64,000 nt of DNA from Terebella lapidaria (taxonomy: Eukaryota; Annelida; Polychaeta; Terebellida; Terebellidae). Under the pieces are notes generated by a model. The model ran no database searches, had not been told where the DNA came from, and worked only from the letters and a program-made list of their open reading frames with translations. The DNA is taken from the NCBI GenBank assembly GCA_949152475.1, contig OX424570.1, positions 20,828,694 to 20,892,693 of the forward strand. The letters are read 5' to 3'. How positions within the stretch are numbered: position 1 is the first letter of the stretch; every line of letters starts with the position of its first letter. Position numbers and translations under genes: made by a program. Below, piece after piece: positions 7,512 to 56,587 of the stretch.

Positions 7512-9555
7512 CTAAACGGTGCTTGTTGCACGTCTGTTTTCCCCGTTGGAAGAGTCAATGTAGCAGGTGACCGTGGTTCTAGGCCGGCTCTCGGAGTCAA
7601 ACACGGACGATCTGTGGACAGCTCTGACGTCATGGTGACAGCACCAAACACGGCGATGGAAGGTATCACTGAAGACGAGATAGATCCAGGGGTTGGTGCA
7701 GCTGTTGAGACTCGCTAGCAACATCAGAATCACGAAGGTTGACCCTGCAAATATGAGTATGGTTATTGACTCGTTTCATAAACTGTCCATCGAAATTAAT
7801 CAAAACATTTGATGGTCGTTTAAAAGAAGTCTGAGTGATGGTGCAATGATGTGTTTGAAAAGATTGCATGTATTTTTTTCTGAATATTTCACTCAGTTTA
7901 TCGCTTGCTGAGAACCAGACACCGAGATATCTTCTGTGAAGGGGGGGGGGGGGGGAGGTTTGTTAATCAGTCTTGTATCAGCTTTTGATTAATATCAGAT
8001 CGTATCATTCCTGCAGCTGAACTGGAAGATTAGAAATGTCTGAGTTGAAATGAATCGCCATAAAACACACAGTATCACTTTATATGAAATGTTATTGTTG
8101 GAATCCCATTTGAATGACAAAATACAGCCGCAAAGTACATTAAATGAGTGATTTATTTTCATTGAACCACTTTTAGAAAGTGGCATAATCCGTTATTTCT
8201 TAAAAGTGGCTGCTTCATATTTCAGAGCTATCAGATGCACAGTTAAAAATTCTAGAAAAACCACAAATTCACTGAAATTTGACACTGAAAGCCTGATATG
8301 TTGCATAGGTTCACCCAAAACAGTTCCCGTGCAAAAAGTAATACGAAACTAACAATTTAGATGAAATATGTTTGTATTTGAAATATAAAGTATTCAATTT
8401 AAGTCTTCCGAGTCACATATAATGACTTTTTTTTTGGTGTCTTGAACTATTAGAATGTGTAATATATGATCAAATTTATGATACCCAACTGACTGGTATC
8501 AGATTCCACCAACAAAGTTCACCACTTCACATTTTTATATTTTGACTGATGTAACGACATAATTCCAGTTACTCAAACATTTTACCTTCAAATGGAGCAT
8601 TGACATCCCAGGCCGCCCACATCTGTGAGATAAAGAATGGTCCCCAGCATATCAGATAACAAATGATGACTGCCATCGTCAACTTGACTGTCTTGAACTT
8701 TGCCTTGGACAGTCCACGGACGTGAGCGCGTGGTCTGCTCTCGTTTGTTTTCTCTGGTACTCCATTCAGGGAGCTGTTAGTCCTCGAATACGTGGAGCAA
8801 CGTCCATGGCGGGAAGTTGAAGATTCTCTGCCTTTCATGCTCCTCCACACTACGTAACAAATTCTCCCGTACGCCAGCATCAAGAGAATAAAGGGTACAA
8901 TGTAAATGGCCAGAGTGAACCAAGTGACGTACAGCTGAACAGTCCAGTCTGGGTAGAACACTCCACGGCAATCATATATTCCACTATCTGTGCCCATTTC
9001 TTGGTAGGAGAAAATCACCAGCTGAGGGATTGCAAATAGTAAGGAGAACAGCCAGGCTATTCCAACTAACCAATGCATTTTACGTGTAGTCCAACTGTGG
9101 GAATTCAGCGGGTGGCAAATAGCGAAGTATCGGTCAATCGCAGTGCTGATGAGAACGTATGATGATGCATACATCGCAACTACTTGTACATAAGTGATGA
9201 ACTTGCAGAGAAAAAATCCTCCCTGGAATCTATAAGTGACATCCCACATCAGTTGAGGGAGAACATTGAAAAACGCCACGAAAAGATCAGCGACACTCAG
9301 ATGGACTATCATAGTGTTCATTCGCGTAAGTTTCTTGCGACGTACAGCCAGTAGAATTGCCAGCACAAGGCCGTTACCGACCACAGCAAGCACGAAAATG
9401 ACAGCTTGAACAGCAATTTCCACTTGAGCCAATGCTTCATCTCGCTGGTGAACATAGCTGAGATTTTTGTTCGTATTATTTAATGGTGAACTTGTCACGT
9501 TATATTCCAAATTCGGTACATTCTTATCCATGTTGTTGCCATATGAATAATCCAT
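7512..9555 (-). CDS. Vasopressin/oxytocin (conopressin/cephalotocin)-type GPCR, 2 exons
   Basis: Class A G-protein-coupled receptor for an oxytocin/vasopressin-superfamily peptide, expected at the plasma membrane. Coding exons are 9555-8586 and 7744-7512; the intron 8585-7745 has GT and AG ends and joins in phase 1, giving 400 residues. The Asn-rich N-terminus has candidate glycosylation sites (NVT, NLS). TM1 carries GNGLVLA and TM2 LSVADL, followed by [14 protein letters not shown], a hallmark of this family. The TM3 cysteine is in FLCKF, then [12 protein letters not shown] at the TM3 end. The TM4-5 loop cysteine is in YDCRGVF, then [13 protein letters not shown] in TM5. TM6 has [12 protein letters not shown] and TM7 [13 protein letters not shown]. 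The short tail has a CC pair suited to palmitoylation and several Ser/Thr. An intron between TM6 and TM7 is also typical of vertebrate AVPR/OXTR genes. The start is the ATG of MDYSYGNN; a second ATG lies eight codons on. Untranslated exons were not resolved. A dead copy of exon 2 lies at 2402-2628. Confidence 0.95.
7745..8585 (-). other. Intron of the receptor gene
   Basis: It begins GTAAAA after codons for NAPFEG and ends TTTGCAG before the TM7 exon; phase 1 on both sides. It holds a poly-G run near 7938-7956 and no other recognisable feature. Confidence 0.9.
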
Positions 9556-11715
9556 TATCCCTTTCCTTCGAAATAGATTTCAATGTGATTTTGTAAGATA
9601 TATAGCCTACTCGCCGTTTTATCAGAAATATACCACAGGGAACACTGCGCCGTGTATGGTAAAATGTACAGTGCATCGGCTTCTGAAATTCCACCCAGTT
9701 GACTGACCGAACATATCTGTTGTGATCGAGAGAGAAAAAATAACTTATTAATATGTAAGTATTGAATTTGTAAAAAAGAGGATCACCCAGGACCCAGGTT
9801 ATAAATCGACCTATTACTATTAGTATCACTCGGACAATACTTGCTCGATTACTCATTATTGTCCATTGTTAAATCAAAATTACTGGAATAAAATGATTCC
9901 ACCTATACTTACACATTTACACCTGTCAGCATTGATGGGATGGTGTCCAGTCAAAGAAAGTGTCATCATTTTACAAGTGCATATTATTGGTGTGCATACA
10001 TTTGTGACTACCATATCCCGCACGGTTGACGTTATCATTCAAGTGCAACTATTGGTAGATACATCACATATTATTATTCACATCTGTTCCAGCGACAAGA
10101 TTCATTCCAATCCCTATTTCGAAATGCAAATCACAAATCCCACAACGATATCCAATGTTACCGTCATTCCCACAAAGTTACCGGACTGATCGACGAATTG
10201 CAAAAGACCGTTTCCATTAGGCTTCGTCTGTGAAATGTCATTCGGGTGGAGTCTTAATGTATTCACCGACGTGGTATCCTTGGTTGCCCTCTGAAGCTGA
10301 AGCCGGACTGGCAGTTTCTAGCCCTTCCCGCGTGAAAACTCCCGAAGTGACTGGCGCACATGCCACAGCCTGCTCGCTAGCTACTAGCAAACACGGCACG
10401 TGTAACGTCTCGGGGGAGCTGCTCGGCAGAAACTGTAGCTGCCTCGCTGGTTGATTTGCTCGTGGAGGTGTCATTCAGGCTAGGGAGGTGAATCTCGGGC
10501 TCTGCTGGCTGGATGCGCTGTGCCGATCGCAAAGCATGCGAGAACCAGACCCATGATTCAGGCGAGGATCCTACGTAATGCAGGATGTTTTATGGTGTAT
10601 CCGTTTTGTGTGAAATGTAATTAACAAGTAATCATATTTCATGCGGGGATGGCTATAGTACTATACTATGAAAATTATGACCTGTCATTGCAGAATAGAA
10701 CAGTTGAGTGATTACCAAACAATGAACCAGAAATTATGCACAACATAAGGCATTAGGTTATTGTATTGTTGTAATTGCTTATAATTTCGGTGTCTTGAAT
10801 AGTAATAATCAAGCACATCGCATAAATAACTCACAAAAAGTTAATGTAATGTGTGTACAGATACATCCATAAATATATCTAACTCCAGTTATCTTCTACC
10901 GCTAATGGTACACGATATTATTCTAATATAGGATCTATATTTGTTTTCAGTTCAGGTATTGGGGAGTATCAATTCTGAATGTCAGAAACATGTGTCGTAT
11001 TGTAATCTGCACGCTCACAGATGTATGATGTCTATAATTGGTCTTAGACAAATGATTGAATATAGTGTTCCCAACGAGGGTTTCAGATCAATCAAATGTC
11101 CAATTAACACAAAGGAACATTGAGACAGTATGCGTATTACCGCGTATATATTTAGCAGGAATAAATATGTCAGTGTACAAGTCTGACACAAAGAATTCGT
11201 TTATCAAAAACTAGCATTGAATGTAAGTATCAATCCACCACCACCAATAGTCAGATTTTGATGATACCAAAAACAAACGTAAAATAGAACATTTTAGAAA
11301 AAAAACAAAGCCCGACCAAATAGTTTATCCAAAGACACACTGGCATCACCAGGGGCAGACAGTGTGTCAAATGTATCAATATAATATCCGCCAATAGCAG
11401 CACATTGTATGACGATAGTTCATACAAGAGATTGTTCTTTTGTCCCCAATGTTACAGCATTACTAGTATTTTACATGTTTGAACCGGCTTAGTCCGTGTC
11501 CCAAGAAATATTCTTATATGAAGTCACGAATTTCGTTGCTTGAATATTTTAGTTTTTACGGGATTGCTCTCTGTTATCTAATACAGCAGGCTTAACACCT
11601 TAATCAGGTCCGTTGGCATTTTCGAGGGTGTAATTTCCGTGGTATTACCATATCTCTCGGCTCTATTTTTAGGCACCAAACCTGCAAAATTGTACACACA
11701 AGAATCGGTCACTAT
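9556..11715. other. 5' flank of the receptor gene and the second arm of the segmental duplication
   Basis: No further gene recognised. The 110-codon frame overlapping the receptor start (9524-9856, minus) has no motif. Region 10380-11130 is the better-kept partner of 4.6-5.3 kb. A single diverged monomer of the 363-bp satellite family lies at about 11222-11385 (shared 'acaaagcccgaccaaatag' and 'ccaaagacacactggc'). Confidence 0.5.
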
Positions 11716-19182: not shown

Positions 19183-19307
19183 GGCCCAAGTATCATACAC
19201 TGCGCCTTTCTCTATATTCAATAAGGATATAAAAGGTGTCAGACGGATTAAATGTCATTCATTCAGTGGGCGAGTAGTATTAGGGCGCAGTGTATGATAC
19301 TTGGGCC
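19183..19307. mobile_element. 125-bp MITE, hAT-like, present only in copy A
   Basis: TIRs GGCCCAAGTATCATACACTG / CAGTGTATGATACTTGGGCC lie at the ends, followed inward by CGCC/GGCG. The 8-bp flanks gactcaaa (19175) and ggctcaca (19308) agree at six positions. Copy B has a single ggctcaca at the same place (about 24389), which is the empty site. An 8-bp duplication points to hAT. A related but more decayed phrase, 'aaagcgcagggtatgatacttcggcc', occurs at 19810 and 27160 in both copies. Confidence 0.8.
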
Positions 19308-20138
19308 GGCTCACACAATAAAAATCTCATTACTGGCACACATGGGGTTATTCCACGTTACGTCATAACGTAGCTTTGTCTGAAAAAAAATGATTCAGGA
19401 CGGTAATATCTGCAGTGCAGGAACAATAAAAGAATCCATAAGCTGTTTTGTACAATTATAATCACAATATTATTTTACAGGAACCATTGCCACCAGAGCC
19501 ATTTATTAGAAAATTTGAATGGTAAGAATAAACAGTGTGGATTATATAGCTGTTTCTTCTGCATACCTGATGGGAGTAATCAGACAAGTGCAAATCTTCT
19601 ATGTGTGACGTGACCATTCTGGATATAATACTCCATCTCCATTATTCCATACATGGCATACTCATCAGGATATACATATTATCGAGTGATATAAGTAAAT
19701 ATTTTGCTGGCATAATTATCGAACACTGCTCCTCATTACTACCCGTCCACTGGAATCATACCATGTAATCCGTTTCACACCTTTTTAATCCTTGTCGAAA
19801 ATAGATTAAAGCGCAGGGTATGATACTTCGGCCAATTTGCTTTCCAATAAGCTTGCCTGTGTTTGCAACGTCCATTCAGTGATACTTACATTACACAGTA
19901 TATTTTATCGTACACTTTATCGTATATTTCATCGATCATTTATAATAGATTGATATAGATAAATAGAATGACTTTTAGATCCCTCCATCTTGATGAATCA
20001 CCAAGCCATACATCTGATAGATAACGCCATTAAATCACATTATTTTAAGAAATCAAGCGGGGTTCCTTAAGAAGGTCAAGGACAAGAAATATAGGAGCTG
20101 TTAATCACACTCCAAGAATATTTGCTTCATGCCTTTAA

Positions 20139-24883: not shown

Positions 24884-26291
24884 GAATGTAGGTATCAATC
24901 TATTACCACAAATACAGTAGATTTTGATGATGCCAATAACAAACGTAAAATACAACATTTTGCAATAGAAACAAAGCCCGACCAAATAGTTTATCCAAAG
25001 ACACACTGGCGTCATCAGGGGCAGACAGTGTGTTAAATGTAGTTGTTTCTACTGTACACCTGATGGAATTAGTATACAACTGCCCAACAACCTATGAAAA
25101 TATTTGATAAATCCGAAACAAACCCCATGGAACAGATATATGACAAGTACATAAGTACCTAATCAATAGCCAGAAGGCTACTGAGTTGATGGTATCCTCG
25201 GGGACAGATTTAACGTCCACCAGCAGTGACACCGACTCAGTGGTATGAATGTAGGTATCAATCTATTACCACAAATACAGTAGATTTTGATGATGCCAAT
25301 AACAAACGTAAAATACAACATTTTGCAATAGAAACAAAGCCCGACCAAATAGTTTATCCAAAGACACACTGGCGTCATCAGGGGCAGACAGTGTGTTAAA
25401 TGTAGTTGTTTCTACTGTACACCTGATGGAATTAGTATACAACTGCCCAACAACCTATGAAAATATTTGATAAATCCGAAACAAACCCCATGGAACAGAT
25501 ATATGACAAGTACATAAGTACCTAATCAATAGCCAGAAGGCTACTGAGTTGATGGTATCCTCGGGGACAGATTTAACGTCCACCAGCAGTGACACCGACT
25601 CAGTGGTATGAATGTAGGTATCAATCTATTACCACAAATACAGTAGATTTTGATGATGCCAATAACAAACGTAAAATACAACATTTTGCAATAGAAACAA
25701 AGCCCGACCAAATAGTTTATCCAAAGACACACTGGCGTCATCAGGGGCAGACAGTGTGTTAAATGTAGTTGTTTCTACTGTACACCTGATGGAATTAGTA
25801 TACAACTGCCCAACAACCTATGAAAATATTTGATAAATCCGAAACAAACCCCATGGAACAGATATATGACAAGTACATAAGTACCTAATCAATAGCCAGA
25901 AGGCTACTGAGTTGATGATATCCTCGGGGACAGATTTAACGTCCACCAGCAGTGACACCGACTCAGTGGTATGAATGTAGGTATCAATCTATTACCACAA
26001 ATACAGTAGATTTTGATGATGCCAATAACAAACGTAAAATACAACATTTTGCAATAGAAACAAAGCCCGACCAAATAGTTTATCCAAAGACACACTGGCG
26101 TCATCAGGGGCAGACAGTGTGTTAAATGTAGTTGTTTCTACTGTACACCTGATGGAATTAGTATACAACTGCCCAACAACCTATGAAAATATTTGATAAA
26201 TCCGAAACAAACCCCATGGAACAGATATATGACAAGTACATAAGTACCTAATCAATAGCCAGAAGGCTACTGAGTTGATGGTATCCTCGGG
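24884..26291. repeat. 363-bp satellite, 3.9 nearly identical units
   Basis: Unit starts at 24884, 25247, 25610 and 25973; the last unit stops at 'gatggtatcctcggg'. By eye the units differ at a single base (gatggtatcc against gatgatatcc near 25919). This implies very recent expansion or strong homogenisation. The repeated 66-codon minus frame is a shadow of the unit. Single diverged relatives lie at 11222-11385, 51575-51695 and 58405-58540, so the monomer is part of a dispersed family. Confidence 0.95.
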
Positions 26292-26901: not shown

Positions 26902-27453
26902 TCTCCACCTCCATGGCTAGTTGTTGTTGTAGGCCCACATGGATATCGGCATTGCGTGCTGTATATTTGATGATTCATATTATGAATATACAACGGCAAA
27001 ATCACCTTCAACTGCATCAATACACTATATGTCCATGTAATAAAAGTAAATACTTTGCTGGCATAATTAACGAACACTGCTCCTTAATACTGCCCGTCCA
27101 CTGAAATCATACCATGTAATCTGCTTCACACCTTTTTGAATCCTTATCGAAAATAGATTAAAGCGCAGGGTATGATACTTCGGCCAATTTGCTTTCCAAT
27201 GAACTTGCCTGTGTTTGCAACGACCATTCAGTGATACCTACATTACACAGTATATTTTATCGTGAACTTTATCGCACATTTTATCGTTCACTTATAATAG
27301 ATTGATATAGATAAATAAAATGACTTTTAGATCCCTCCATCTTGATGAATCAGCAAGCCATACCTTTGATAGATAACGTCATCAAGAAGGTCAAGGACAA
27401 GAAATCTAGGAGCTGTTAATCATATTCCAAGAATATTTTCTCCATGCCTTTAA

Positions 27454-28383: not shown

Positions 28384-31300
28384 AATAATATATGTCTGCA
28401 CGAACCCATTGTGGTCGTAGTTCAAAAACATTTTCATTCCCTCCACCAATTTAACTACTATATTTTGATTGACTTGAAAACTTTTTCACGATTGGCCCTT
28501 CGATAATCACCATTATGATAATTAGATTATCCAGCAGATTGGGTTGACATTTGTCAATGTTTGATGGTTGATGGTATGATAATAAAGACAGGACATTGTG
28601 CGCTAATTCGAAAAAAAATGTATTAATGTTACCTACTTGACTAAATTGAACTAGATCTCGAATGTAAATTGATTGAAGTGTGAATATTCCAGTTCCCAAT
28701 TTCCATACTGGTATGTCTGGGAAGCTGGAAAATATTCTAAAATGCACTACTTAATTTGAACACGACAACCAGACATTCACATGGCTCATAGCGATATTTT
28801 AAATATAAAATTTGATAGTAATATTCGCCTTTGTTCCATAAACACGTAGAGTGCTTAACAGTGATGGTGTTCTAAAAGGTGTCGTGACTGATAATCGTAA
28901 ATTATATGCATCACTGGCATGTACCAAGATCCACAGTTATGCAATCATGATTAGTAGATTACGTGCATAGTAGATTGTATCTGAATTAAAATGGCACTGA
29001 TTTTTATTTATTGGATTTGGAATTTGTCTGTTTGTCGGTATCTATCTGTGCTTTCAATCATCTCAAACATGTAATTGGGCTCGTCTGGCACAGTTTTTTT
29101 TATAGTATTATCCATAGACCATGCGCTGGGTAGTTGCATAGTGACTAAACAACTTTGTGTCAGGAATGTAGCCTATCGATATATGGCTATTACAAATTAC
29201 CAAATCACCTTTCGAATGGCCCATATGCACTGTTGTTGAACTGAAGTTGGCATGCCAGTGCTCCTGAGTGACCCCATGCCTGGTACGTTTTCACAGCTAT
29301 GGTGGCATGTTACATACGCAAGGGAGTGTGCGAATATCTGTCCGGGCTGATTCCACAAATCGTATCATCAATCAAAGATTCCTCAAGATTCTTTTGCGAC
29401 TTTCCATTCAGAGATGATGAATGAATGGACATAATTGGATCTCCTTCACCGGAGAGATCTGTTCGCTTACTTGTTATTTTTGTCCTTTTGGACACCATGC
29501 TGCCAGTTGCACCACCAATTTTCCGTGTAATGTTGGGGCGCAACACGTCTCACGATATATAACGCTATTTTCTTGGTGGCCATCAATATATATGTGTATT
29601 TTGGCTCTGATCAATCCAAGTTGTTTCCACTAAGTAAGGCTTTTCAAATAGCGAATTAAACAGCAACAACTCTTTTCCTATCCAGACGCGACTGCGAAAA
29701 TGGGACATAGAACAATGGAGGGCATTATCAACAGCGTGTATTATCGACACCCCCATGAATAAATTCAAGTTTGGCAGAAACAATAATGCAGAATTTAGAT
29801 GTATCCCTTTAAGAAATTGATCCTGAAACGAATTGGATTGGGAAGACATACTTTGATATCCATTCAGACATACTTTGATATCCATTCATTCAATAATATA
29901 TGTCTGCACGAATCCACTGTGGTCTTAGTTCAATGACACTTTCATCCCTTCCACCAATTTAACTACTATATTTTGATTGACTTGAAAACTTTTTCAGGAT
30001 TGGCCCTTCGATAATCACCATTATGATAATTAGATTATCAAGCAGATTGGGTTGACATTTGTCAATGCTTGATGGTTGATGGTATGATAATAAAGACAGG
30101 ACATTGTGCGCTAATTCGAAAAAAATGTATTAATGTTACCGACTTGACTAAATTGAACTAGATCTCGAATGTAAATTGATTGAAGTGTGAATATTCCAAA
30201 TCCAATTTCCATACTGGTATGTCTGGGAAGCTGGAAAATATTCTAAAATGCACTACTTAATTTCAACAAGACAACCAGACATTCACATGGCTCATAGCGA
30301 TATTTTAAATATAAAATTCGATAGTAATATTCGCCTCTGTTTTATGAACACATAAAGAGCTTAACAGTGATTGGTGTTCTCAAAGGTGTCGTGACTGATA
30401 ATCGTAAATTATATGCATCACTGACATGTACCAAGATCCACAGTTATGCAATCATGATTAGTAGATTACGTGCATAGTAGATTGTATCTGAATTAAAATG
30501 GCACTGATTTTTATTTATTGGATTTGGAATTGGAATTTGTCTGTTTGTCGGTATCTATTCGTGCTTTCAATCATCTCAAACATGTAATTGGGCTAGTCTG
30601 GCACAGTTTTTTTTATAGTATTATCCATAGACCATGCGCTGGGTAGTTGCGTAGTGACTAAACAACTTTGAGTCAGGAATGTAGCCTATCGATATATGGC
30701 TATTACAAATTACCAAATCACCTTTCGAATGGCCCATATGCACTGTTGTTGAACTGAAGTTGGCATGTCAGTGCTCCTGAGTGACACCATGCCTGGTACG
30801 TTTTCACAGCTATGGTGGCATGTTACATACGCAAGGGAGTGTGCGAATATCTGTCCGGGCTGATTCCACAAATCGTGTCATCAATCAAAGATTCCTCAAG
30901 ATTCTTTCGCGTCTTTCCATTCAGAGATGATGAATGAATGGATATAATTGGATCTCCTTCACCGGAGAGATCTGTTCGCTTACTTGTTGTTTTTGTCCTT
31001 TTGGAAACCATGCTGCCAGTTGCACCACCAATTTTCCGTGTAATGTTGGGGCGCAACACGTCTTACGATATATAACGCTATTTTCTTGGTGGCCATCAAT
31101 ATATATGTGTATTTTGGCTCTGATCAATCCAAGTTGTTTCCACTAAGTAAGGCTTTTCAAATAGCGAAATAAACAGCAACAACTCTTTTCCTATCCAGAC
31201 GCGACTGCGAAAATGGGACATAGAACAATGGAGGGCATTATCGACAGCGTGTATTATCGACACCCCCATGAATAAATTCAAGTTTGGCAGAAACAATAAT

Positions 31301-32830
31301 GCAGAATTTAGATGTATCCCTTTAAGAAATTGATCCTGAAACGAATTGGATTGGGAAGACATACTTTGATATCCATTCAGACATACTTTGATATCCATTC
31401 ATTCAATAATATATGTCTGCACGAATCCACTGTGGTCTTAGTTCAATGACACTTTCATCCCTTCCACCAATTTAACTACTATATTTTGATTGACTTGAAA
31501 ACTTTTTCACGATTGGCCCTTCGATAATCACCATTATGATAATTGGATTATCCAGCAGATTGGGTTGACATTTGTCAATGTTTGATGGTTGATGGTATGA
31601 TAATAAAGACAGGACATTGTGCGCTAATTCGAAAAAAAATGTATTAATGTTACCGACTTGACTAAATTGAACTATATCTTGAATGTAAATTGATTGAAGT
31701 GTGAATATTCCAAATCCAATTTCCATACTGGTATGTCTGGGAAGCTGGAAAATATTCTAAAATGCACTACTTAATTTGAACAAGACAACCAGACCTTCAC
31801 ATGGCTCATAGCGATATTTTAAATATAAAATTCGATAGTAATATTCGCCTTTGTTTTATAAACACGTAGAGTGCTTAACAGTGATTGATGTTCTCAAAGG
31901 TGTCGTGACTGATAATCGTAAATTATATGCATCACTGACATGTACCAAGATCCACAGTTATGCAATCATGATTAGTAGATTACGTGCATAGTAGATTGTA
32001 TCTGAATTAAAATGGCACTAATTTTTATTTTTTTTGGAATTGGAATTTGACTGTTTGTCGGTATCTATTCGTGCTTTTATTCATCTCAAACATGTAATTG
32101 GGCTCATCTGGCACAGTTTTGTTTTATAATATTATCCATAGACCATGCGCTGGGTAGTTGCATAGTGACTAAACATCTTTGAGTCAGGAATGTAGCCTAT
32201 CGATGTATGGCTATTACAAGTTACCAAATCAGCTTTCGAATGGCCCATATGCACCGTTGGTTAACTGAAGTTGGCATGCCAGTGCTCCTGAGTGACCCCA
32301 TGCCTGGTACGTTTTCACAGCTATGGTGGCATGTTACATACGAAAGGGAGTGTGTGAATATCTGTCCGAGCTGATTCCACAAATCGTATCATCAATCAAA
32401 GATTCCTCAAGATTCTTTTGCGTCTTTCCATTCAGAGATGATGAATGAATGGATATAATTGGATCTCCTTCACCGGAGAGATCTGTTCGCTTACTTGTTT
32501 TTATCCTTTTGGACACCATGCTGCCAGTTGCACCACGAATTTTCCGTGTAATTTTGGGGCGCAACACGTCTCACGATATATAACGCTATTTTCTTGGTGG
32601 CCATCAATATATATGTTTATTTTGGCTCTGATCAATCCAAGTTGTTTTCACTAAGTATGTCTTTTCAAATAGCGAATTAAACAGCAACAACTCTTTTCCT
32701 ATCCAGACGCGACTGCGAAAATGGGACATAGAACAATGGAGGGCATTATCGACAGCGTGTATTATCGACACCCCCATGAATAAATTCAAGTTTGGCAGAA
32801 ACAATAATACAAAATTTAGAAACTTATCAC
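28384..32830. repeat. Tandem array of three units of about 1.51 kb
   Basis: Units begin 'aataatatatgtctgcacgaa' at 28384, 29892 and 31405. The first 570 bp of the unit equals the last part of copies A and B (21045-21600). The distal part adds 'gtagattacgtgcatagtag...' and a stretch that is the reverse complement of 18541-18590. The third unit loses similarity at about 32815. A minus-strand frame of 77-78 codons (29310-29546, 30823-31059, 32334-32567) is kept open in all three units with several amino-acid changes and one in-frame codon loss. It has no known domain and no supporting context, so it is not called as a gene. Confidence 0.9.
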
Positions 32831-38109: not shown

Positions 38110-38205
38110 AAAAAAGTTGAATGATGACCATTTTCAAAAGACAAGGTTCACATACTGGCTCAAACGTGAAACACTACTGGTGCTTAAAAGTTTACAGGCT
38201 CATTG
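38110..38205 (+). pseudogene. Inverted fragment of the F-box gene
   Basis: The plus strand encodes DDHFQKTRFTYWLKRE, matching the end of exon 2 of the F-box gene (DDHFRKTRFTYWLKRE) on the other strand 1.2 kb away. The match runs on through the presumed donor 'actactggtgctt' into the intron start. It carries only about 90 bp and no start, so it is a copied fragment. Confidence 0.8.
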
Positions 38206-39015: not shown

Positions 39016-39777
39016 TTATGAGTCTTTCTGCTCACAAGAACGACTACAATACTTCTGTCCATCTGAATAGAAAATAACGTTCCCCAAAGACCCACGCTGG
39101 AAGCCGACATGACTTGTGAAGATGCGCTGACACACCAGACAGGTCCTTGAGGAATAACCCCGCTGATATTCAAGCTGGAAGTCTTTCGGAAACCTTGTCC
39201 AATCAATGGTTTCTGAAAGTAAGTAAATTAAAATTCATTATACGGCACAGGAACAACTCCATTGAAAGATGGACATGTCAAGAATTTTGAGCGGAGTTCC
39301 ACATCAGTGAAAATGAAGTTTACATCAGTGAAAATGAATTTTTACAGTGATAGAGCCTATAAACTTTGAAGCACCAGTAATATTCTCACGTTTGAGCCAG
39401 TATGTGAACCTTGTCTTTCGAAAGTGGTCATCATCCACGATGTCTCGCCAACGTTGGCACACAAGGCGACAAGCCTGACTCACGGAGTCATCATAGGCCG
39501 AGGCCACGACCAGTATCTTCTCCAGGATTTCATTTGGTAGATCATCAATCATCTGCAAGACATGCCTAATGTCATTATGTAGAACCAGTTCCATTACATT
39601 CTACATGCACAAAATACACACACGAATGCATCTCTGTTATGTAACTAGTTGGTTGCTCACTTTGTGTGTGGGCTGCTCATAAGGCAAAGTGTCGTCTTCT
39701 GACCCAGCGCGTTCCTCATCAGAAGACAATGTCAAATTCATCCGCTGTGATCGTGAAAGCAAATCGTATTCATACAT
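39016..39777 (-). CDS. F-box protein with C-terminal Cys motif, 3 exons
   Basis: Exons 39777-39661, 39600-39375 and 39212-39016 give 179 residues with matching phases (0, then 1). The acidic N-terminus (SSDEERAGSEDD) is followed by an F-box at about residues 57-95 (IDDLPNEILEKIL, then RLVCQRWRDIV). The F-box is the Skp1-binding module that lets a protein act as substrate adaptor of an SCF ubiquitin ligase. The tail has WTRFPKDF and then C139-x2-C142 and C170-x3-C174, a possible zinc knuckle. The second donor (ACTG|GTGCTT) is weak but is the join that keeps the Cys motif in frame. Exon 1 donor GTGAGC and acceptor TGTAG are ordinary. The start codon is about 200 bp past the stop of the integrase-USP gene on the same strand, so shared transcription or one mobile unit is possible. 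A 90-bp inverted copy lies at 38110-38205. Substrate unknown. Confidence 0.72.
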
Positions 39778-39979
39778 TGTATCACCTCGATATGTTTGCT
39801 GATTTGTTTTAAACTTTTATTTGCTGCATATGCTTGCTATTTATTGAATGTAATAATTGACATTACATAAAAAAAAATTATTGGTCTTCATAGATATCAT
39901 TTTTTGTTTGGTGGTTTGGCTACCTTCACACCCGTGCTATTTCGCTTTTTGGTACCAGGCAGGTTGAGGGTTGGAGTTT

Positions 39980-42900
39980 TTAGTTCACCTCTGACCCAGA
40001 ATAGTCCATCTTGTGAGCAGTTAAGTATTGTTCAATTGTGAGCAAGTATTTCTGAGGGGCAAGATTTTCTGAGGAACAATTTCTTTGAACAACAACAGTT
40101 TTGATGTAAAGGATACAAGCTGAGGAATTGATGAAGCCCATAGCTCTGCTGTGTGAGATGCCTGTTGTTATACGATCTCCATTGTGGCGAATCCTGCAAG
40201 ACAGAACTCATTGAACTGAGAATCATTTTAGGTCCCTGACAGTAAGGGAAAGAGTTTTTGAAATCAAGACAATGTGTTCATGAATATGTATAGGTTAAAG
40301 TAAATTATATTTTTTTAAAGATATCAAGGTAATTTCTTGCATGATACCATGATTGTCCATCCTGGTCTCTGACGAGAGAAACGTAATGGGCTGAACCATG
40401 CAAGATGGCAGCAAAGATCATGTACTGGCCCTGATCCACCACAGGGTTTCCATTGTCACCGGTCAACAGGTCAAAATTGATGGTATCTGGGACATCCACA
40501 GGTGTCTGGAAGGACAGCATTCACATTAAAGCAAAACAGATCACTAATGATCATTACCGGTATGAATGAATAACTTACATGATTGACATGAAACATTTAA
40601 CATGATTCATAAGGAAAAGATGAAATTGTCAGTAATTCACTTGCAATTTTTTAATTAAAACCTCGTGATACATTATGTTTTTAATATCCAGTGCTATATT
40701 TGCTTACTGTGAAGTGAACTCTGTTGCTGACTTCGATGACAAGTATGTCTGGAAAGCTTTCCACAACGTAGTGCCAGCCCTGAATGATAAGAAAAAAAAA
40801 AAATAGTTTAACTGGTACCGCTACAGTCTTTTCTTAAATATATTCACAGCAGAGCACCCACTCTTAGCATCACTCACTTGTCTTTCTTCACAATCCATCT
40901 TCAGAGCATCCCGGATCATTAGCTCCAGGCGACCGCCATCAGGGTGTTGCAGAACACGTAGTATGTTCTCATCTGCAATAGTGAATGTTATGTTTAATGG
41001 CAATGGAAAAATGGATATTATGATTCGATATAAATGGTAGGTATGTGCCGAAATAAAGTTAATAGTTGAAATTGTGTGCAACAAACATTTTAACTGGTAT
41101 CACATCTATCACATCACAGTCAAATATGTAATAATTAAGGATTTTGCTACACATCATTGATTAACATAATTGGAGACTAACTGTTATACAAATTCCAACA
41201 CATGTTGACACTAGTTCTACACCACAGATTAACTGTTGTACAGTGTGGAAAAGTAGAATGATCCCCTATTGTGTAATAAAACAGACAACAATACAAACTG
41301 CACAAACATGTATAGTGTTGTTCCTAGGTTGAAGCCTGGTGTCATTCACACAGCCGGTATTGTTCCCAAATGTACTCTCAAAAGTTATATGCATCATTTT
41401 AGACATGTCTACTTCAGACCAGATACATTAAAAACGCTTGTTTTTATTCCATACTGTACAGGATAATTTAACTATGTCCAGAATCAACACTATACACTTG
41501 CATGAAATGGGTTGTCAAACAGATAACGGATCTGAAATAAGCTTTGATGGTTTCCAACGTTGTAACTGAATATTCTGAAAGGTTGGTTACATGTTATGTG
41601 ATGTTGATTGCGGACATTCATTCCAGCATCATATGTTTTACTTCCAAAATAGAAAACATTCTGGAAAGCAGTTGCGAGTGTGTTGTCACATTTCTGAAAC
41701 GTTATGGCAATTACTGTGGCAGAGTTATATATGACAAAGACATGCAACATAATATTTTCTGTATTGTAATGTTAAAACTATCTGAGGTGATGATGTACAG
41801 GCAAATAATTTCCACTGTTACAAAACGAATGATAAGCTGTTAGGAAGGTGAAAGATAGATCAAACAGAAGTACTTCAACAGAATTTCAAACATACATGGT
41901 TTAAACTAATCAAGAGATTTCTCTATACCTGCAAGTCATCCTGGAGTGTGTCAAGCAATGTGGCGTAGAACTCCAGAGAGTCATTCGTGATACCGATTCC
42001 ACGCCCATCTTGTGCATCCCAGTGGACAGACTCATAAACTCTGTGTAGAGCAGCCATTCTGTCCCTATCTGCAGCGTCCTGCTAAAAGATATGAACATTT
42101 ATATTTACCATTAATATATTTATCCATTCACTGCTGTTGGTACATAAATATATTAAAAATATTTCCGCATGTTGGTATGTGTAATACCAATGAGCACATT
42201 TTTGTGACAAGCCCATTTGTCCTGTATTTCACCTGCACACTGTCTGTGGAGTTCTGGTAATCAGCTGATCTTTCCATTAGCAGCTGAAGGCTCTGCAGCA
42301 ATAGCCCAAAGTTGAACTCCTTGGCAGCCTCCACCAACAGCTGAAAATCACAAATTACAGAAAAAAGCTTTACTTAATGACTCTCTTGTTGATATTCAAG
42401 AAGTTGATATTTGGACACTTCAGAAAGTTGCAGGATGGAATTTGATACATATAAGAAATCCGAAGGCTGGACAAGTTTGGTTATAAACATTGCATGTATG
42501 ATATGCCCCTGTCAAGGTCATTTGAGGTCAAATACAAGGTGTGCCATGTATGCTCACTATATAAATATAAGCTGTATCTAAAAGCATCTTGTCTGAAATA
42601 CTTCTACGTATGCAATGCCACACTAACAAGTTATTGACCTATAGGTCTGGTAAGCTAAAAAACCTGAAGTGGCTTGACGTATTGCAGAATGCTGAACGTA
42701 GCTGCAGAGTAGCAGTTGAGGCCCTTGGATGGGAAGGTGGACAGTGGTACAATTGAAGCTTCGCCATCGGATGCACACGAGCGGGTCTTGGTTTGTGTAG
42801 TCGAGGCTGGGCCATGGGTCGCACTCGGGAGGGTCTTGGCTTGTGCAGTCGAGGCTGGGCCATGGGTCGCACTCGGGAGGGTCTTGGCTTGTGCAGTCGA

Positions 42901-45900
42901 GGCTGGGCCATGGGTCGCACTCGGGAGGGTCTTGGCTTGTGCAGTCAAGGCTGGGCCATGGGTCGCACTCGGGAGGGTCTTGGCTTGTGCAGTCGAGGCT
43001 GGGCCATGGGTCGCACTCGGGAGGGTCTTGGCTTGTGCAGTCGAGGCTGGGCCATGGGTCGCACTCGGACAGAGCTTGGTTTGAACCTATTACGCAGGTA
43101 AACACATGAGCATGTGTCTGATGCTTTCACAAAAAATGACATAAATTTCAAGCTGTCAATTTATCAATATGATAACACTTATAAAGCTTTTGTCTTATCT
43201 CACCGTATGACTCTTTCCTGCAGGATTTTTACATCCCAATGCATCTCTTTGACAGAGGCATCGAGGGGAGCATTTGACATTGTTGCGAAGGCAACCACAC
43301 CTCCCCTTGGAGCAAATTCCGTGCAGTCTGCTGCGACATGTGCAACGGTTATGCTTCTGCCAGGCCTTTTTCTCCGCAGTTTGGCAAAAGGTGCGACAGT
43401 ATGTTCTCAGTGTTACCTGCTCGCACAGGAAATATAACAAACCAAAATTTAATCTGTTGACCTGAAGAGAAGTCAGTGTGATGTCATGTACATGTATTGC
43501 AATATGATTGGAATGGGTATTGGAATAAAAACTGAAAAATTGTGAGCATACTGGCTTTTGGTGTGTTGCTTGCAAGTCTGCAACTGGAACCGTGACTTCA
43601 GCATTCTGTGGGCGAACCTGCAGAGGAGATTAGATAACTCAAACTAGAATTTATTTTACTGTATAGAGAAATGTGTTGCATATTTATGACTTGAACAACG
43701 TAAAGAATGTACATTGGTACATGCATAAACAAGATTAAAACACAGAAAAAAAACATACTGGCTTTTGGTGTGTTGCTTGCAAGTCTGCACCTGGAACCGT
43801 GACTTCAGCATTCTGTGGGGTTCTGTGTGGGGAAGTGGGCGGGGTGAAGTATTCTTCTCCAGAAGAAGAGACATTATAGTTCTCTTCAACACGTGGTCCA
43901 AGATTTCTCCAGAAGGAATCTCGAACTTCTGGAACTGCACAAATATAAAACTTCGATTCCGATGTAGCTTCAATGTATCAGCAATGACACTGATCAACAC
44001 CATGAATTGAAGTAGCATGCATGGATATCTATATGCTTACCTGATATGAACTTGGCTGCATTAACAGTCCTATTCAGTGGCAACCCAGTCTTTTCGAAGT
44101 TTGGGGTAAGCAGCTCCAATTTCAGTTTCCTTCCCTCTTGTTGTGTCACGAGACAAGGGGCATTCATGACCTGTCCTTTGCTCCGGTCCGGTTGTGGAAT
44201 CCTTACAGTCCCAACACCTCCAACTCTAACACTGGCAACCTAGGATTTCAGTATGAATATAAATTGTATCAATATTAATTATATTAAATATAGATACCTT
44301 CATTTTCAATTTATGACTTCATAAAAAAAAAATGTGTACTGTACGTATGGAATTCATCAGGACATTCATCATGAAGTATTCCAACAGATGTATGACGTAT
44401 ACTCCTGCATACTGGAAAAAATCATGAAATCAATAATACCTTCGATGGTTGTTGCTTCACAATTTTTTTCTCACTCTCTTTCACATTCCCAACAGCATCA
44501 GTGAGTGTTGCTTCGGATGCTTTCTGTATGTGTTCCCAGGCATGTCTGCAAAACATTTCAATAACTACACACTCTCAAGTCGCTGATGTCAAGTTGGTGT
44601 ACATGTACATGTATCCCCCAAATACATGTATTGCCAAAATTTGATGTGAAATGGGATGCGTAGAGCATCCACAAGTCTCTCAGTACACAGCAGGGTACTG
44701 TGCTCGGAGGATACAATGAAAACATGTGTACCGATAGTATGCTTTACTCGGTCTAGTGCTTATTATCCTGTCCATTGTTGCCATTCGCAAGTGTCAGATA
44801 CACAATTATCGGCATTTTTCCAACTTTTATACAGCAACTATGCTTACTCAGAAAACTGAGGTGGGTCATCACAAGCATCTTCAATGGCTACTTCCTTGAT
44901 GTGGCCTTCCTCATCGCACAGTATGGGATGCTGTTCTCGATTCAGTCTGCCTGCCACTCCAGGGTAAAACACATCCACGGGTTTGAGGACCTTCTGCCTG
45001 AAGGTTAGGGCCGAGTGTGGAGTGTTGCTGATTGAAGATGAAACAGGATGTTACGGTCTAGCAATGGTCAGTAGGAATTGTCATTCCGAGCAACAATTTC
45101 TAGCACATGATGGAAATTACAGAAGAATAAATTAACATTGAAATATCCCTTCTCAATGATACACCGATTGCTTCAGTTTGCTCCGTTGACACTGCACAGT
45201 TTATGAAAAAAAAACCCTCAAAACACATGTGGTCCAGGACACATTCCCAAAATTAATAAGATTTTCTTCTTTAGGTTACCGGACCTTTGGTCCGATAGCC
45301 TACTGCCAGACATTGTGTCCATCGTCCATCGTCATCCGTCAATTTTTATCTTCAAAGTTTATGATCTATTCTTTCTGAAATTTTGCACAAAAAAAGGCAC
45401 AAAAAAATTTCAAGAGGGAGGTATTTTCATTTTTGATGAAATATGGACAATTTTGAACTTTGACGGTTGTTTCCTCGAAATGTGTTCAGCAACTAAATTT
45501 TTCATATTACTTATATTTCTCTGGTCACAGATACGTCCCTCTAATCAGGTAGGGTAGCATGCAGTAAAAACATAAATGTTCAGTGAGTACTACATATTTA
45601 CTTGTATATCGACAAAACTTCCTCCAGGGCATGCTCCATGCTGAGCTCCATCCCCCTCTTCTCAGCCTCTCTGAGATGCGCTTGGAGTTTCATCTGGAGG
45701 GTCCCGTTCAATCGTTCAAAACGCCCTCCGGTCTGTGGCGACCTTGGGAGTGCCCGCTTGATCTTCACCCGCAGTGCTTTCATGAGTGACCTGGAATTTA
45801 CACACACACACACACTGTGAATCACTGGATGGTATACATTAGTATTTCTTCACTAACTCTAATATACTTGATTTTGCTTCACTTTACTTGTAACTTATCA

Positions 45901-47923
45901 GTTGTTATAAATTTTGATTATATATTTTATTAAAAAATTTCATACATTCTAGCTAGTAATAGTTATGATAAATGACACGATAAATACTTCAATAAATTTC
46001 CAGTGAACTGTGATCCGTTGTCGCATTGAATTGCCATTGGCACCATCCCCAGTCGCCTGAATAAACTCAGGAACACGCTTGTCACTTCTTCGATGTGGCC
46101 GTCCCCAGTTAGCCAGAAGGCCCAGGCAAATCTGCAAATTGATGTGTGCTACATATGGTAATCGTTCATGTTAACACCCTGGGCCGTTAAATTGAAGTTT
46201 GCACAAAGTGGAGGGGGGGGGGGGAGGTCCCTACAAAGACATTGGCAGTAGCCCCAGCAATTACGGTACATTTTCATCGGTAAACATGAAACTCACCCCT
46301 ACATTGATATTTTTGCCTTTCCAACTATACAACATCACTCAATTTTATTACATTTAAGAACATTAGTATTCAGTATCCTTGTTTATTGTTATCGTTGGCG
46401 ATTATTGGCGAAACAATAAAATGAATCCAAATCATTGGAAAAACCCTCTTTCAGTTGGCGTGCATTTTACTAAACCCACAGGAAGTTGCTTATTACAAAC
46501 TCACCGAGAAAAATAATCGATGATGGTCAGTAGACAATGCACTGTGCCATCCCGTGGGTCAACAACCTTGACTAGGTCCGTACCAAGGCGTTCAAAAACT
46601 GCATATACCTTGATCGGTGTAGTGTGGGCAATTTTCTTGTTGAGCGGCTAAAATGTACGAGGAGAACACATTTCAGGACTGAAACTACAGTTTTGTATAC
46701 ACATTTATAATTGATGATCATTCAAAAAGACAATCAATCCAATATTTTACAGATATACTCCATTGGCATTGTTAGATTCAACTCTAAACTAACATGCATC
46801 CAATGCTGTAAGTCAAGCTAAACACACTGTTGATCATTTGAACACTACTTCTTTGCCACTCACATGTATTTATCATTAGACTTTCCAGATTTATTTTGTG
46901 GATTGAAGAAAACAAAATTACAATCATAACCTAAAATATTGACCTTTCAAATTTGTAATTTTTGCAATGAAGATCACCGTTGAACAAATAATATATCGGT
47001 AACCTAAGTTTGACTTGCCTTAGTTGTTCGACATGTTGCACATGTGTTGACATAGTCACGCACAGTTTGATTGTCCACCCCCATGTACATGGTTTCCAGC
47101 TGGCAATTTGATATATAACACATACATGTATTCAGACGTGGAGTGAGAGCTGAGAGCAACCACTGGATATATTCGAAAATAGTTCTAATGGTGACTTATA
47201 CTATTTTTGTTGCTCATTAGCATCGCATGTGCAAGGTACCTTTGCTGAATGCATGAAAAAGACGGCATTTTAAGTATTCTTCACCTTGGCATACAGCGCA
47301 TTTATTCCAGGATGGCCTCCCAAATCGTGGAACTGCTGTAATACTTGTGGAAGTTTTGATGTGGGCAGGACCTCTTTCATCTTTACCTCCTGCAAAACAA
47401 ATATACACGAATAAACTGATCCTACCACTTCAGAATTTCAACAAATTGCAGTAAATCAGGCAATGTCAGTAAATCAAGATGCTTGTGACAATATTTAACC
47501 ATACTACATACATTTCCTTCTTCAACCATTTTCTGCAAAACTCCATTTCTGGTGCAGAGATTATTTGTTCGAATGAAGTTCTGCAACCTATGGCGTTTGC
47601 ATCTGACGGTGTTGCAGGATTCCTGAGAAGGATATAAAATGTGATTGTTATTAGTACGGTATATCAATTTTTGATGTATAATGTAGGCCTATAATTTCAT
47701 CATTCCTTATCTTCACGTAATTAAAATGTGATGCATTCTGTGGAGACATTATCTTACATTTACATATGATGCCATATATAAATATTCCCTTGTATACATG
47801 TACCAATGAGAGCTTCTCATCATATGCCATGATCGAGGCATGTCTTCAGTCCACCTGTCCCCTTGCCTCCATACACTGTGCGATGTACAGAAGAGCAGCA
47901 TAGTGTTTGTCGGAAATTTTCAT
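39980..47923 (-). CDS. Integrase-CXC-USP fusion protein, 21 exons, 1002 residues, apparently intact
   Basis: Exons: 47923-47855, 47622-47512, 47389-47285, 47099-47019, 46647-46505, 46131-45988, 45790-45602, 44997-44848, 44545-44440, 44239-44041, 43934-43759, 43617-43552, 43416-43204, 43086-42664, 42340-42233, 42081-41929, 41531-41498, 40972-40878, 40779-40708, 40505-40348, 40193-39980. They total 3009 nt with every phase agreeing. Visible domains: HHCC zinc finger (H81, H86, C115, C118); integrase core with D146, D207 (QCDNGSQF) and E243 (RFERLNGTL), a D,D35E spacing; Cys-rich CXC-like motif, C520-C575; 16-residue repeats, about 585-690; USP domain with C709 (GLNCYSAATFSILQ), H919 (HGSAHYVSLVRDQ) and D938 (RHNGDRITTG), ending SSACILYIK. 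The integrase would join DNA ends; the USP would remove ubiquitin. No reverse transcriptase or capsid frame is nearby, and many introns are present. This fits a Ginger-type DNA transposon or a domesticated one. Least certain: the exon 13 acceptor, the exon 14 donor (GTTTTT), and the start (ATG just after a CAG that could be an acceptor). Confidence 0.85.
42470..42610 (+). repeat. Intronic fragment of the dispersed 'caaggtca' family
   Basis: In the intron between the USP Cys-box exon and the next exon. 'gtcaaggtcatttgaggtcaaatacaaggt' and 'tgctcactatataaatataagctgtat' match the middle of the 38.25-kb and 54.4-kb copies. Confidence 0.55.
42790..43080 (-). repeat. 48-bp coding minisatellite (six units) in exon 14
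   Basis: Near-perfect 48-bp units, read in the gene's frame as AQAKTLPSATHGPAST. They form a Ser/Thr/Pro/Ala-rich linker between the CXC-like motif and the USP Cys box. Because 48 is divisible by 3 and the unit has no stop in several frames, long false open frames appear on both strands here. Confidence 0.95.
43552..43934 (-). repeat. Exon duplication inside the fusion gene
   Basis: The last about 60 nt of exon 11 (43759-43934) and nearly all of exon 12 (43552-43617) encode the same PQNAEVTVPxADLQATHQKP segment. They differ at one base (Gly or Val) and both end at a CCA|GTATG donor. Both are in phase, so the segment is present twice in the protein. Confidence 0.85.
45268..45550 (+). repeat. 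Intronic copy of the dispersed 'ggttaccgg' family
   Basis: 'ggttaccggacctttggtccgatagcc' (with a hairpin), 'catcgtccatcgtcatccgtc' and 'ctgaaattttgcacaaaa' match the terminal parts of the copies at 38.25 and 60.15 kb. It lies between exons 7 and 8 of the fusion gene. Confidence 0.6.
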
Positions 47924-55947: not shown

Positions 55948-56587
55948 TCATAAGTTAATCATGATGTGATCCCTTTTCGTGTTCCCTTCCACAATTTCCT
56001 CAGACAATGTGAAGGGTGATGCAGGAGTGTCGTCACTGTCGTGAGAGATGGCCTTCTCTTTCATGATTAAGTTACGAAGAACCATACCTGAAATAATCAC
56101 GTTCAGAACATGTCTCATGTGTGACGAATCCATGGGGGTACTGAACCTACCTTTCAGGAACCCAAAAGCTGTTTCAATTACAATCCTTCCATAGGAACTG
56201 AAGTAACTGAAAGTGCTTTTTAGCAGACGAACTGTCCAATGCAGGCCCTTCTCCGTAAGGTGTGATGCATGTTGATGAGGAAGGGTAGGCTTCGTCACCA
56301 AGCAGGAATATGTGAAGAGGAAGCGTTTCGTCAGAGTTACTACCGTAAAGTGGTGAGTTCCTGAAAACGGTGGCATCGTGACAGGAATTAGGTCAGCCCC
56401 AGTAAGCATTTGTGAAGATCATTTGATCATCACACACTGCCTGAAACAACACAGAGGGGTATTCCTTGCGATTATAATACGCATCTGGATGGATTTTGGG
56501 CCTCTTGATTGCAATGTGAGACCCATCAATAGCCCCAATAACGCCAGGTATATTGCACATGGATTTGAATCCAGAGGTGACAGACTA
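55948..56587 (-). pseudogene. HARBI1/Harbinger-type transposase (DDE_Tnp_4), decayed
   Basis: Nuclease of the PIF/Harbinger DNA transposons. On the minus strand the three catalytic blocks occur in order: IPGVIGAIDGSHIAIKRP (first Asp), then YYNRKEYPSVLFQAVCDD, CHDATVFRNS (second Asp), LLGDEAYP (third), and GRIVIETAFGFLKGRF, the usual block after the active site. The reading frame is broken by an in-frame TGA before CHDATV and by at least one frameshift between LLGDEAYP and GRIVIE, so it is inactive. A plausible acceptor (cATAG|TCTGTC) precedes it at about 56588. No Myb/SANT partner gene was found. Confidence 0.85.

Follow-up and report, generated by a model that had tools for sequence, protein, structure and literature searches.

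A predicted annelid gene joining a Ginger1-related integrase to a ubiquitin-specific protease domain

A predicted gene on the minus strand of the window (the whole 64,000-nucleotide stretch of Terebella lapidaria DNA that was analysed), from position 47923 to 39980, is spliced from 21 exons into a frame of 1066 amino acids that joins an integrase to a ubiquitin-specific protease (USP) domain. It is most likely an immobile, domesticated gene related to the Ginger1 DNA transposons. We consider it probable that this is a single host gene which descends from a Ginger1-related DNA transposase, has lost its mobility and makes a DNA-tethered deubiquitinase. The finger, core, SH3-like stretch and CXC-like motif would attach the protein to DNA or chromatin, and the USP domain would thereby reach local ubiquitinated proteins, which might be histones, proteins of repair or silencing, or the transposase itself. 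Since relatives carry a C-terminal OTU or Ulp1, the protease may first have been useful to the transposon and then been retained at domestication. The product would be a host DNA-binding deubiquitinase made from a transposase.

Gene model and domain order

From the N- to the C-terminus, the protein comprises an H2C2 finger, a D,D35E integrase core, an SH3-like stretch, a CXC-like cysteine motif, a 48-bp coding repeat and the USP domain. The features are as follows.

39980..47923, minus strand: whole coding span, 21 exons, 1066 aa (spliced model, consistent phases, no internal stop)
47285..47923, minus strand: exons 1-3, N-terminus and HH half of the H2C2 finger (Pfam Integrase_H2C2, residues 69-123; alignment to amphioxus P0013)
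47019..47099, minus strand: exon 4, CC half of the H2C2 finger, then the GC-AG intron (spliced model, Pfam)
45602..46647, minus strand: exons 5-7, rve integrase core with D146, D207 and E243 (Pfam rve, residues 142-236; PDB integrase matches)
44041..45027, minus strand: exons 8-10, integrase tail and SH3-like stretch (whole-protein alignment with amphioxus P0013 and P0014)
43552..43934, minus strand: exons 11-12, linker; the two adjoining exons share a near-identical 20-aa repeat (read from sequence)
43204..43416, minus strand: exon 13, CXC-like cysteine motif (local alignment to the P0014 motif)
42783..43068, minus strand: 48-bp in-frame coding repeat, 6 copies, within exon 14 (Tandem Repeats Finder, 98% matches)
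42664..42782, minus strand: end of exon 14, USP Cys box with Cys719 (UCH match from residue 716)
40708..42340, minus strand: exons 15-19, middle of the USP domain (UCH match; the C15 locus has counterparts of exons 15-17)
39980..40505, minus strand: exons 20-21, USP His box (His983), Asn1000/Asp1002 and C-terminus (spliced model, Pfam UCH)
39815..39844, minus strand: two AATAAA hexamers, possible polyadenylation signals, 136 and 160 nt past the stop

An earlier note on this DNA had described an integrase-USP fusion, which is supported here by one open spliced frame and by Pfam matches. The profile search proposed there, with integrase_H2C2, rve and C19 (UCH) models, gave matches above the gathering cut-off for all three (Integrase_H2C2, 1.3e-10; rve, 1.3e-9; UCH, 2.4e-8). 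The UCH match covers residues 716 to 1006, so that exons 14 to 21, where lack of any C19 match had been named as an argument against the fusion, do contain one. The strand, the ATG at 47923, the stop at 39980, the 21 exons and their agreeing phases were all reproduced. The length of 1002 residues was not, the new model having 1066; the gap is probably due largely to exon 17 (41498-41693), for which a related locus, C15, has a match too (54% over 37 aa). Nineteen of the 20 introns are GT-AG and one, after exon 4, is GC-AG, with phases consistent throughout. The coding frame of the spliced model contains one stop codon, the terminal one, versus 38 and 43 in the other two frames, and the G+C content is 49% in exons versus 33.5% in introns.

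The HHCC finger (H81, H86, C115, C118) and the D,D35E core (D146, D207, E243, with 35 residues separating D207 and E243) are both present as first noted, according to Pfam and the sequence, and the core matched the Ty3 and foamy virus integrases in a PDB search. The SH3-like stretch of exons 8 to 10 is named by our own reading of the sequence; alone against amphioxus it scored 42 (shuffle mean 22.6), and its support is weak because the best of 3000 shuffles likewise reached 42. The integrase also matched the NCBIfam model transpos_IS481 (6.8e-22, 78.3 bits). This match is unspecific, since all seven other integrase proteins tested match the model too, five of them with higher scores and Gypsy polyproteins among them, and an IS481 origin was dropped.

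The cysteine-rich CXC-like motif and the repeats of the earlier description were recovered in exon 13, in the six-copy exon 14 array and in the 20-aa repeat of exons 11 and 12. The local alignment of the motif to that of P0014 scored 94, far above shuffled sequences (mean 36, best of 5000 shuffles 73), and the half-motif pattern hits once across the six frames of the window. The Pfam TCR model covers the motif from positions 2 to 36 of 38 but remains below cut-off (9.1 bits vs 23.5), and no PDB match was found for the CXC part. The motif is a probable zinc and DNA binder.

Relatives in amphioxus and in the same genome

The nearest relatives found are two Branchiostoma proteins, P0013 (671 aa) and P0014 (883 aa), both named 'uncharacterized', which form a clade with the gene (support 100/99 in a 20-row tree). 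P0013 aligns with the gene from the first Met through the finger, core and SH3-like stretch but stops short of the CXC motif. P0014, a predicted protein, carries an integrase and a CXC motif matching that of the gene ahead of its protease, but this protease is an OTU (Cys697, His820) where the gene has a USP, and P0014 as predicted contains no finger. The linker is longer in both than in the gene. A protein search for relatives of the USP part in other species returned none among 2321 candidates at E 0.001, no PDB chain matched this part, and viral contigs gave no relatives for it or for P0014.

In the 762-Mb assembly, the USP part was found only in this gene, on contig C17, and at one truncated locus, on C15 (all 11 candidates were scored; eight are exons of this gene and three belong to C15). 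Pieces related to the gene lie on C17, C15 and a third contig, C6. Five splice sites agree between C15 and the gene. The 5' part of C15 is 88-91% identical to C6 in DNA, whereas its USP part is only 49-62% identical to the window gene in protein, and the idea that C15 is an ancient copy of the entire fusion was thus dropped. The C6 integrase is 43-81% alike to the window gene and has all three catalytic residues. Two OTU exons lie 6.5 kb downstream of it, matching positions 1-39 and 56-86 of the OTU profile, each under the Pfam cut-off; a third open frame near them had no match, and 30 kb of the C6 locus yielded no exon for an SH3-like stretch, a CXC motif or a USP. By its nearness and strand, the C6 OTU possibly belongs to the integrase gene. 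At E 0.001 the amphioxus OTU part matched five loci in the whole genome, all 90 candidates having been scored, and OTU domains are therefore no rarity there; C6 was absent from these loci, and the best-scoring one, on C8, had no integrase match in the 30 kb examined.

Mobility, integrity and probable domestication

The Ginger1 DNA transposons of Bao, Kapitonov and Jurka (2010) bear OTU or Ulp1 proteases (PMC2836005), as the earlier note had stated, and they resemble the gene in their H2C2 finger, D,D35E Gypsy-like integrase and C-terminal ubiquitin/SUMO-type cysteine protease, one family also having a GC-AG intron. The gene differs in its USP, in its lack of the GPY/F and YPYY motifs and of convincing terminal inverted repeats (TIRs), and in its 20 introns, compared with 0-4 in the 16 published families. 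No Pfam match to OTU or Ulp1 was found in the 1066-aa protein at E 5. GP[YF] and P[YF][YF] are absent from the whole protein, the latter representing the YPYY motif that precedes the finger in Ginger1, and GP[YF] is also absent from P0013 and P0014. The Ginger label proposed earlier is thus borne out by the finger and core but not by these motifs.

Further features taken as typical of Ginger1 are TIRs of 40-270 bp, a 4-bp CCGG/CCGT target site duplication and a C-terminal OTU or Ulp1. No convincing TIRs were found around the gene among the longest 25 of 66 inverted pairs at 36-52 kb or among all 21 pairs of at least 40 nt in the window. The gene is bracketed by two pairs of this second set, one of 118 nt (75%) and one of 46 nt (83%), and both were rejected as TIRs, lying within a repeat near 38.5 kb with copies also at C6 and C15. 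Within the limits of these searches, the few copies and missing transposon ends are those of a domesticated gene. Of the two possibilities raised earlier, a settled gene is therefore favoured over a mobile element, because there are no convincing TIRs, 20 introns rather than 0-4, and few related loci.

It is unlikely that the gene is instead a rare or recent autonomous Ginger1-related transposon with unrecognised ends, whose USP would prevent the ubiquitin-dependent loss of a repair factor or of the transposase. The intact DDE triad and H2C2 finger would suit such an element, as would the related pieces on three contigs and the single autonomous Ginger1 copy known in B. floridae (PMC2836005). 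However, besides the 20 introns and the lack of a convincing Ginger1-type inverted pair, the C6 pieces (43-81%, integrase, no USP found) and C15 pieces (49-62%, USP, truncated) are not copies of one element. The sole good inverted pair at C15 (126 bp, 94%) was rejected as element ends, its arm being a small dispersed repeat with further window copies at 19183-19308, 19717-19833 and 27068-27185.

A domesticated gene has parallels in Imagin and GIN1/GIN2, few-copy, intron-bearing integrase genes of Ginger1 descent, for which the available portions of the sources (PMC12863088, PMC3424704) do not mention a USP. Since the DDE triad is intact, unlike that of Imagin, which is described there as lost (PMC12863088), retained transposase activity is still conceivable.

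The putative USP catalytic residues are Cys719, His983 and Asn1000 or Asp1002, in contexts that, as read from the sequence, resemble those of USPs. The Cys and His of the earlier note were found under new numbers (Cys709 is Cys719, His919 is His983). Its third residue, Asp938, probably corresponds to Asp1002, and Asn1000 is the more likely candidate, at Trp+4, presumably the site of the third catalytic residue in many USPs. The oxyanion Asn of USPs usually lies five residues before the catalytic Cys; in the gene this residue is Ser. Because of this Ser and the weak UCH match (34.3 bits vs a cut-off of 23.9), USP catalysis may be altered.

These features, with the Gly directly after Asn1000, would also fit a decaying gene whose exons are open through youth or chance and whose USP is by now inactive, as would C15, where little of the integrase core remains and about 30 kb of downstream sequence did not yield the USP His box. 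We give this reading little credence, as 1066 codons and 20 introns are without a break. Decay is also disfavoured by the pattern of differences across 214 codons aligned with C15, which fall 63, 38 and 107 times at the three codon positions (dN 0.24; dS 1.3-4.3, saturated, for stretches chosen by similarity and a truncated C15), and since the exon 14 unit is 48 bp, copy-number changes preserve the frame. A wrong merger of two adjoining genes, one integrase-derived and one USP, to which the immediate stop met by exon 8 when translated beyond its donor might point, is very improbable: introns 8 to 13, between the integrase and USP exons, are all GT-AG with matching phases, residues 401-757 contain no methionine, so that the USP part lacks its own start codon and would need one elsewhere, integrase and USP pieces adjoin again at C15, 300 bp apart, and in predicted P0014, too, a protease shares one protein with a related integrase and a CXC motif.

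Possible exchange of the protease module

The protease position in this integrase family seems to be exchangeable, because P0014 has the order integrase-CXC-OTU and C6 an intact-triad integrase with OTU exons downstream. We tentatively suggest, at somewhat less than even chances, that the C-terminal protease is a swappable module, with OTU, Ulp1 and USP, unrelated folds that remove ubiquitin or SUMO, placed on related integrase chassis at separate times, even in one genome (USP at C17, OTU exons downstream at C6, and a chimaera at C15 that combines a USP with a 5' part of the C6 type), the removal of ubiquitin-like tags at DNA being a transposase requirement. If so, such removal would be a need of the transposase and not an accident of capture, and USP would join OTU and Ulp1 as a third class of protease, unrelated to either, on integrase chassis whose kinship is still recognisable. 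Why ubiquitin/SUMO proteases are frequent on integrase-type DNA transposases has been asked since 2010, when action on repair factors was put forward (PMC2836005). With an OTU-bearing relative in amphioxus, and perhaps another in this genome, the question becomes testable by comparison, as a trait common to the swapped enzymes would be the needed function.

The earlier note knew of no USP fused in this way, and none fused to an integrase-type transposase was found among the literature matches listed (titles and abstract openings). A DNA transposase fused to a USP-type protease is, however, already on record: the Trichomonas vaginalis protein XP_001314237.1, compared here by its published mention, joins transposase_11 to Peptidase C19 (PMC2836005), although this is another transposase class and a protist. 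The Helitron VTD deubiquitinases and the genes domesticated from them also represent a transposon-borne deubiquitinase later retained by hosts, but, as far as the available text of PMC9741609 goes, on a Helitron instead of an integrase and with VTD and OTU domains rather than a USP.

A predicted gene joining an integrase to a ubiquitin-specific protease

The fusion gene comprises 21 exons whose predicted spliced product of 1066 residues has a single stop, at its end; the alternative frames of the spliced sequence contain 38 and 43 stops. Its 20 introns are GT-AG in 19 cases; the exception follows exon 4 and is GC-AG. G+C content is 49% in exons and 33.5% in introns. The earlier note had the same gene ends and exon number, with a shorter product of 1002 residues. 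The present model includes exon 17 (41498-41693), which has a protein match (54% over 37 residues) at C15, a related locus on the contig of that name.

Fusion gene and Pfam matches of the full protein, all above the curated cut-off
47923-39980, minus strand: fusion gene
Residues 69-123: Integrase_H2C2, E 1.3e-10
Residues 142-236: rve, E 1.3e-9
Residues 716-1006: UCH, E 2.4e-8

The finger, integrase and C19-type (UCH) assignments of the earlier note are thus borne out by profile. Among solved structures, the integrase half matches the Ty3 (E 4.8e-10) and foamy-virus (2.5e-9) integrases, and the USP half has no match. The finger residues read from the sequence are H81, H86, C115 and C118, and the triad is D146, D207 and E243, with 35 residues separating the last two. 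The USP Cys and His are likewise present as first proposed, renumbered from Cys709 and His919 to Cys719 and His983. Relative to the His-box Trp, Asn1000 lies at +4 and Asp1002 at +6; from the usual USP pattern, we take Asn1000 to be the likelier third catalytic residue. The usual USP residue five before the catalytic Cys is the oxyanion Asn; a Ser occupies this position before Cys719.

As a gene model, the integrase-USP fusion is judged real. Extending exon 8 beyond its donor leads to an immediate stop, which counts against one gene. Methionine is absent between residues 401 and 757 and the USP part begins near residue 716, so that this part has no nearby start codon of its own. At C15, integrase and USP stretches are separated by 300 bp, a spacing that, judged from sequence, speaks for a single unit.

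Exons 11 and 12 (43552-43934) have near-identical 20-residue ends, PQNAEVTVP.ADLQATHQKP, a small tandem exon duplication. A 48-bp coding repeat at 42783-43068 (six copies, 98% matches) has several frames open on both strands.

Relatives in amphioxus and in the Terebella genome

A whole-protein search gave 12 matches among 7996 scored candidates, all Gypsy-type polyproteins by their domains, and the USP part alone found relatives in none of 2321 candidates. Residues 1-594 matched seven of 6423 candidates, the top two being the Branchiostoma proteins P0013 (E 8.4e-49) and P0014 (3.0e-27). An integrase tree of 20 rows groups the window protein with these two in a clade supported at 100/99. An IS481 match of the integrase is not specific, since all seven other tested proteins have it, five with higher scores. 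In the whole-protein alignment, the fusion protein is collinear with P0013 from the first Met through the SH3-like stretch; that stretch alone is weak (score 42, equal to the best of 3000 shuffles).

P0014 carries rve and OTU (Pfam 3.3e-14). Its integrase shows D,D35E, and the OTU catalytic residues are Cys697 and His820; the finger is missing from its predicted sequence. A Cys motif between rve and OTU scores 94 in local alignment with exon 13 of the fusion gene; 5000 shuffles averaged 36 and reached at most 73. Shuffling loses the Cys spacing, so that the score is due in part to Cys content. Owing to unequal linker lengths, the two motifs are not matched to each other in the whole-protein alignment.

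We searched the Terebella genome (761.6 Mb, 438 contigs), where the window lies on contig C17 at 20828694-20892693, with residues 1-594 (74 of 5070 candidates scored). At least 76 matches were obtained, a lower bound as C15 is missing from them: eight in the fusion gene, one at a new locus on contig C6, and 67 at 27-29% identity, a level typical of Gypsy elements. Many of these 67 are near-uniform, with long open frames of 398-2180 residues, often 1454, and one of the 67 has a match-internal stop; this may reflect recent activity.

All three catalytic residues are kept at the C6 locus (27128338-27134245, plus strand), whose integrase shares 43-81% identity with that of the window. About 6.5 kb downstream and on the same strand lie two exons with matches to the amphioxus OTU, at E 1e-3 and 3e-5 for the 30 kb searched; separately, they match OTU profile positions 1-39 and 56-86, below the Pfam cut-off. 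A search of the 30 kb found no SH3-like, CXC or USP exon. A genome-wide amphioxus-OTU search listed five loci without C6, the best having no integrase match nearby, and the C6 OTU is therefore a candidate part of the integrase gene, by position only. We infer that chance is unlikely to have placed a same-strand OTU so close, even with some hundred OTU loci. More surprising than the fusion itself is the OTU borne by a related chassis in amphioxus, and possibly also in the Terebella genome.

All 11 candidates for the USP part in the genome matched, eight being fusion-gene exons and three lying at C15:12269604-12270452. The C15 locus has the N-terminus, finger and first integrase-core stretch, with Asn in place of D146, then, beyond the 300-bp gap, the USP Cys box and two further USP exons. 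The remaining core was not found there, nor was the USP His box, there or 20 kb further downstream; the CXC pattern has no match in the surrounding 20 kb. Five splice sites agree with the fusion gene, and the intron after exon 14 is absent from C15. Over 214 matched codons, differences at positions 1, 2 and 3 number 63, 38 and 107, with dN 0.24 and dS 1.3 to 4.3; purifying selection is only suggested, because the compared stretches were picked by similarity and dS is saturated. C6 and C15 DNA are 88-91% identical near the start codon and across exons 3-5, so the C15 5' part is a fairly recent C6-type copy and the locus a chimaera or converted copy. At C15:12271493-12271803 a piece of the N-terminal exon is doubled in tandem.

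Mobile element or settled gene

According to Bao et al. (PMC2836005), the TIRs of Ginger1 elements are 40-270 bp long, their target duplications are of CCGG type and their introns number 0-4, with more than 15 copies in 10 of 16 listed families and occasional single copies. The region 36-52 kb has 66 inverted pairs, of which we examined the longest 25, together with all 21 pairs of at least 40 nt in the window. Two of the 21 span the fusion gene, one of 118 nt at 75% and one of 46 nt at 83%; they were rejected as TIRs, since both lie within a repeat near 38.5 kb with further copies at C6 and C15. An inverted pair at C15 was rejected as element ends, being a dispersed small repeat. With these pairs being dispersed repeats, 20 introns as against 0-4, few related loci found, unlike one another, and GPY/F and YPYY motifs absent from the fusion protein and its amphioxus relatives, the gene is Ginger1-related, not a Ginger1 element; the Ginger label of the earlier note holds to that extent. 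The intact DDE triad makes transposase activity possible, unlike domesticated Imagin genes, which have lost it (PMC12863088).

The dispersed small repeat of the C15 pair, MITE-like and 126 bp long with GGCCC.AGTA-type inverted ends, occurs in the window (19183-19308, 19717-19833, 27068-27185) and in two further stretches (L021 5356-5481; L022 3101-3226).

Proposed action, parallels and neighbouring features

Keeping the protein on DNA would be the task of the finger, core, SH3-like stretch and CXC-like motif, and the USP would strip ubiquitin off proteins located there. Repair factors are proposed as targets of transposon OTU and Ulp1 by Bao et al. (PMC2836005), who also mention a Trichomonas protein likewise joining a transposase to a C19 domain, its transposase being transposase_11. 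Helitron-borne deubiquitinases that became host genes (PMC9741609) are another parallel. Among the literature matches listed, titles and abstract openings mentioned no fusion of a USP with an integrase-type transposase, in keeping with the earlier note, to which none was known.

Other features of the window
39325-39816, minus strand: F-box gene (PF12937 4.1e-8), seeming to begin about 200 nt past the fusion-gene stop on the same strand
38118-38201: partial inverted copy of the F-box gene
55948-56418, minus strand: open frame with no Pfam match, resembling a PIF/Harbinger transposase remnant
24884-26291: tandem array, 363-bp unit, 3.9 copies, 99%
28384-32794: unit of roughly 1.5 kb in about three copies, divergence uneven along the unit
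8569-9579, minus strand: rhodopsin-type GPCR exon (PF00001 3.2e-43)
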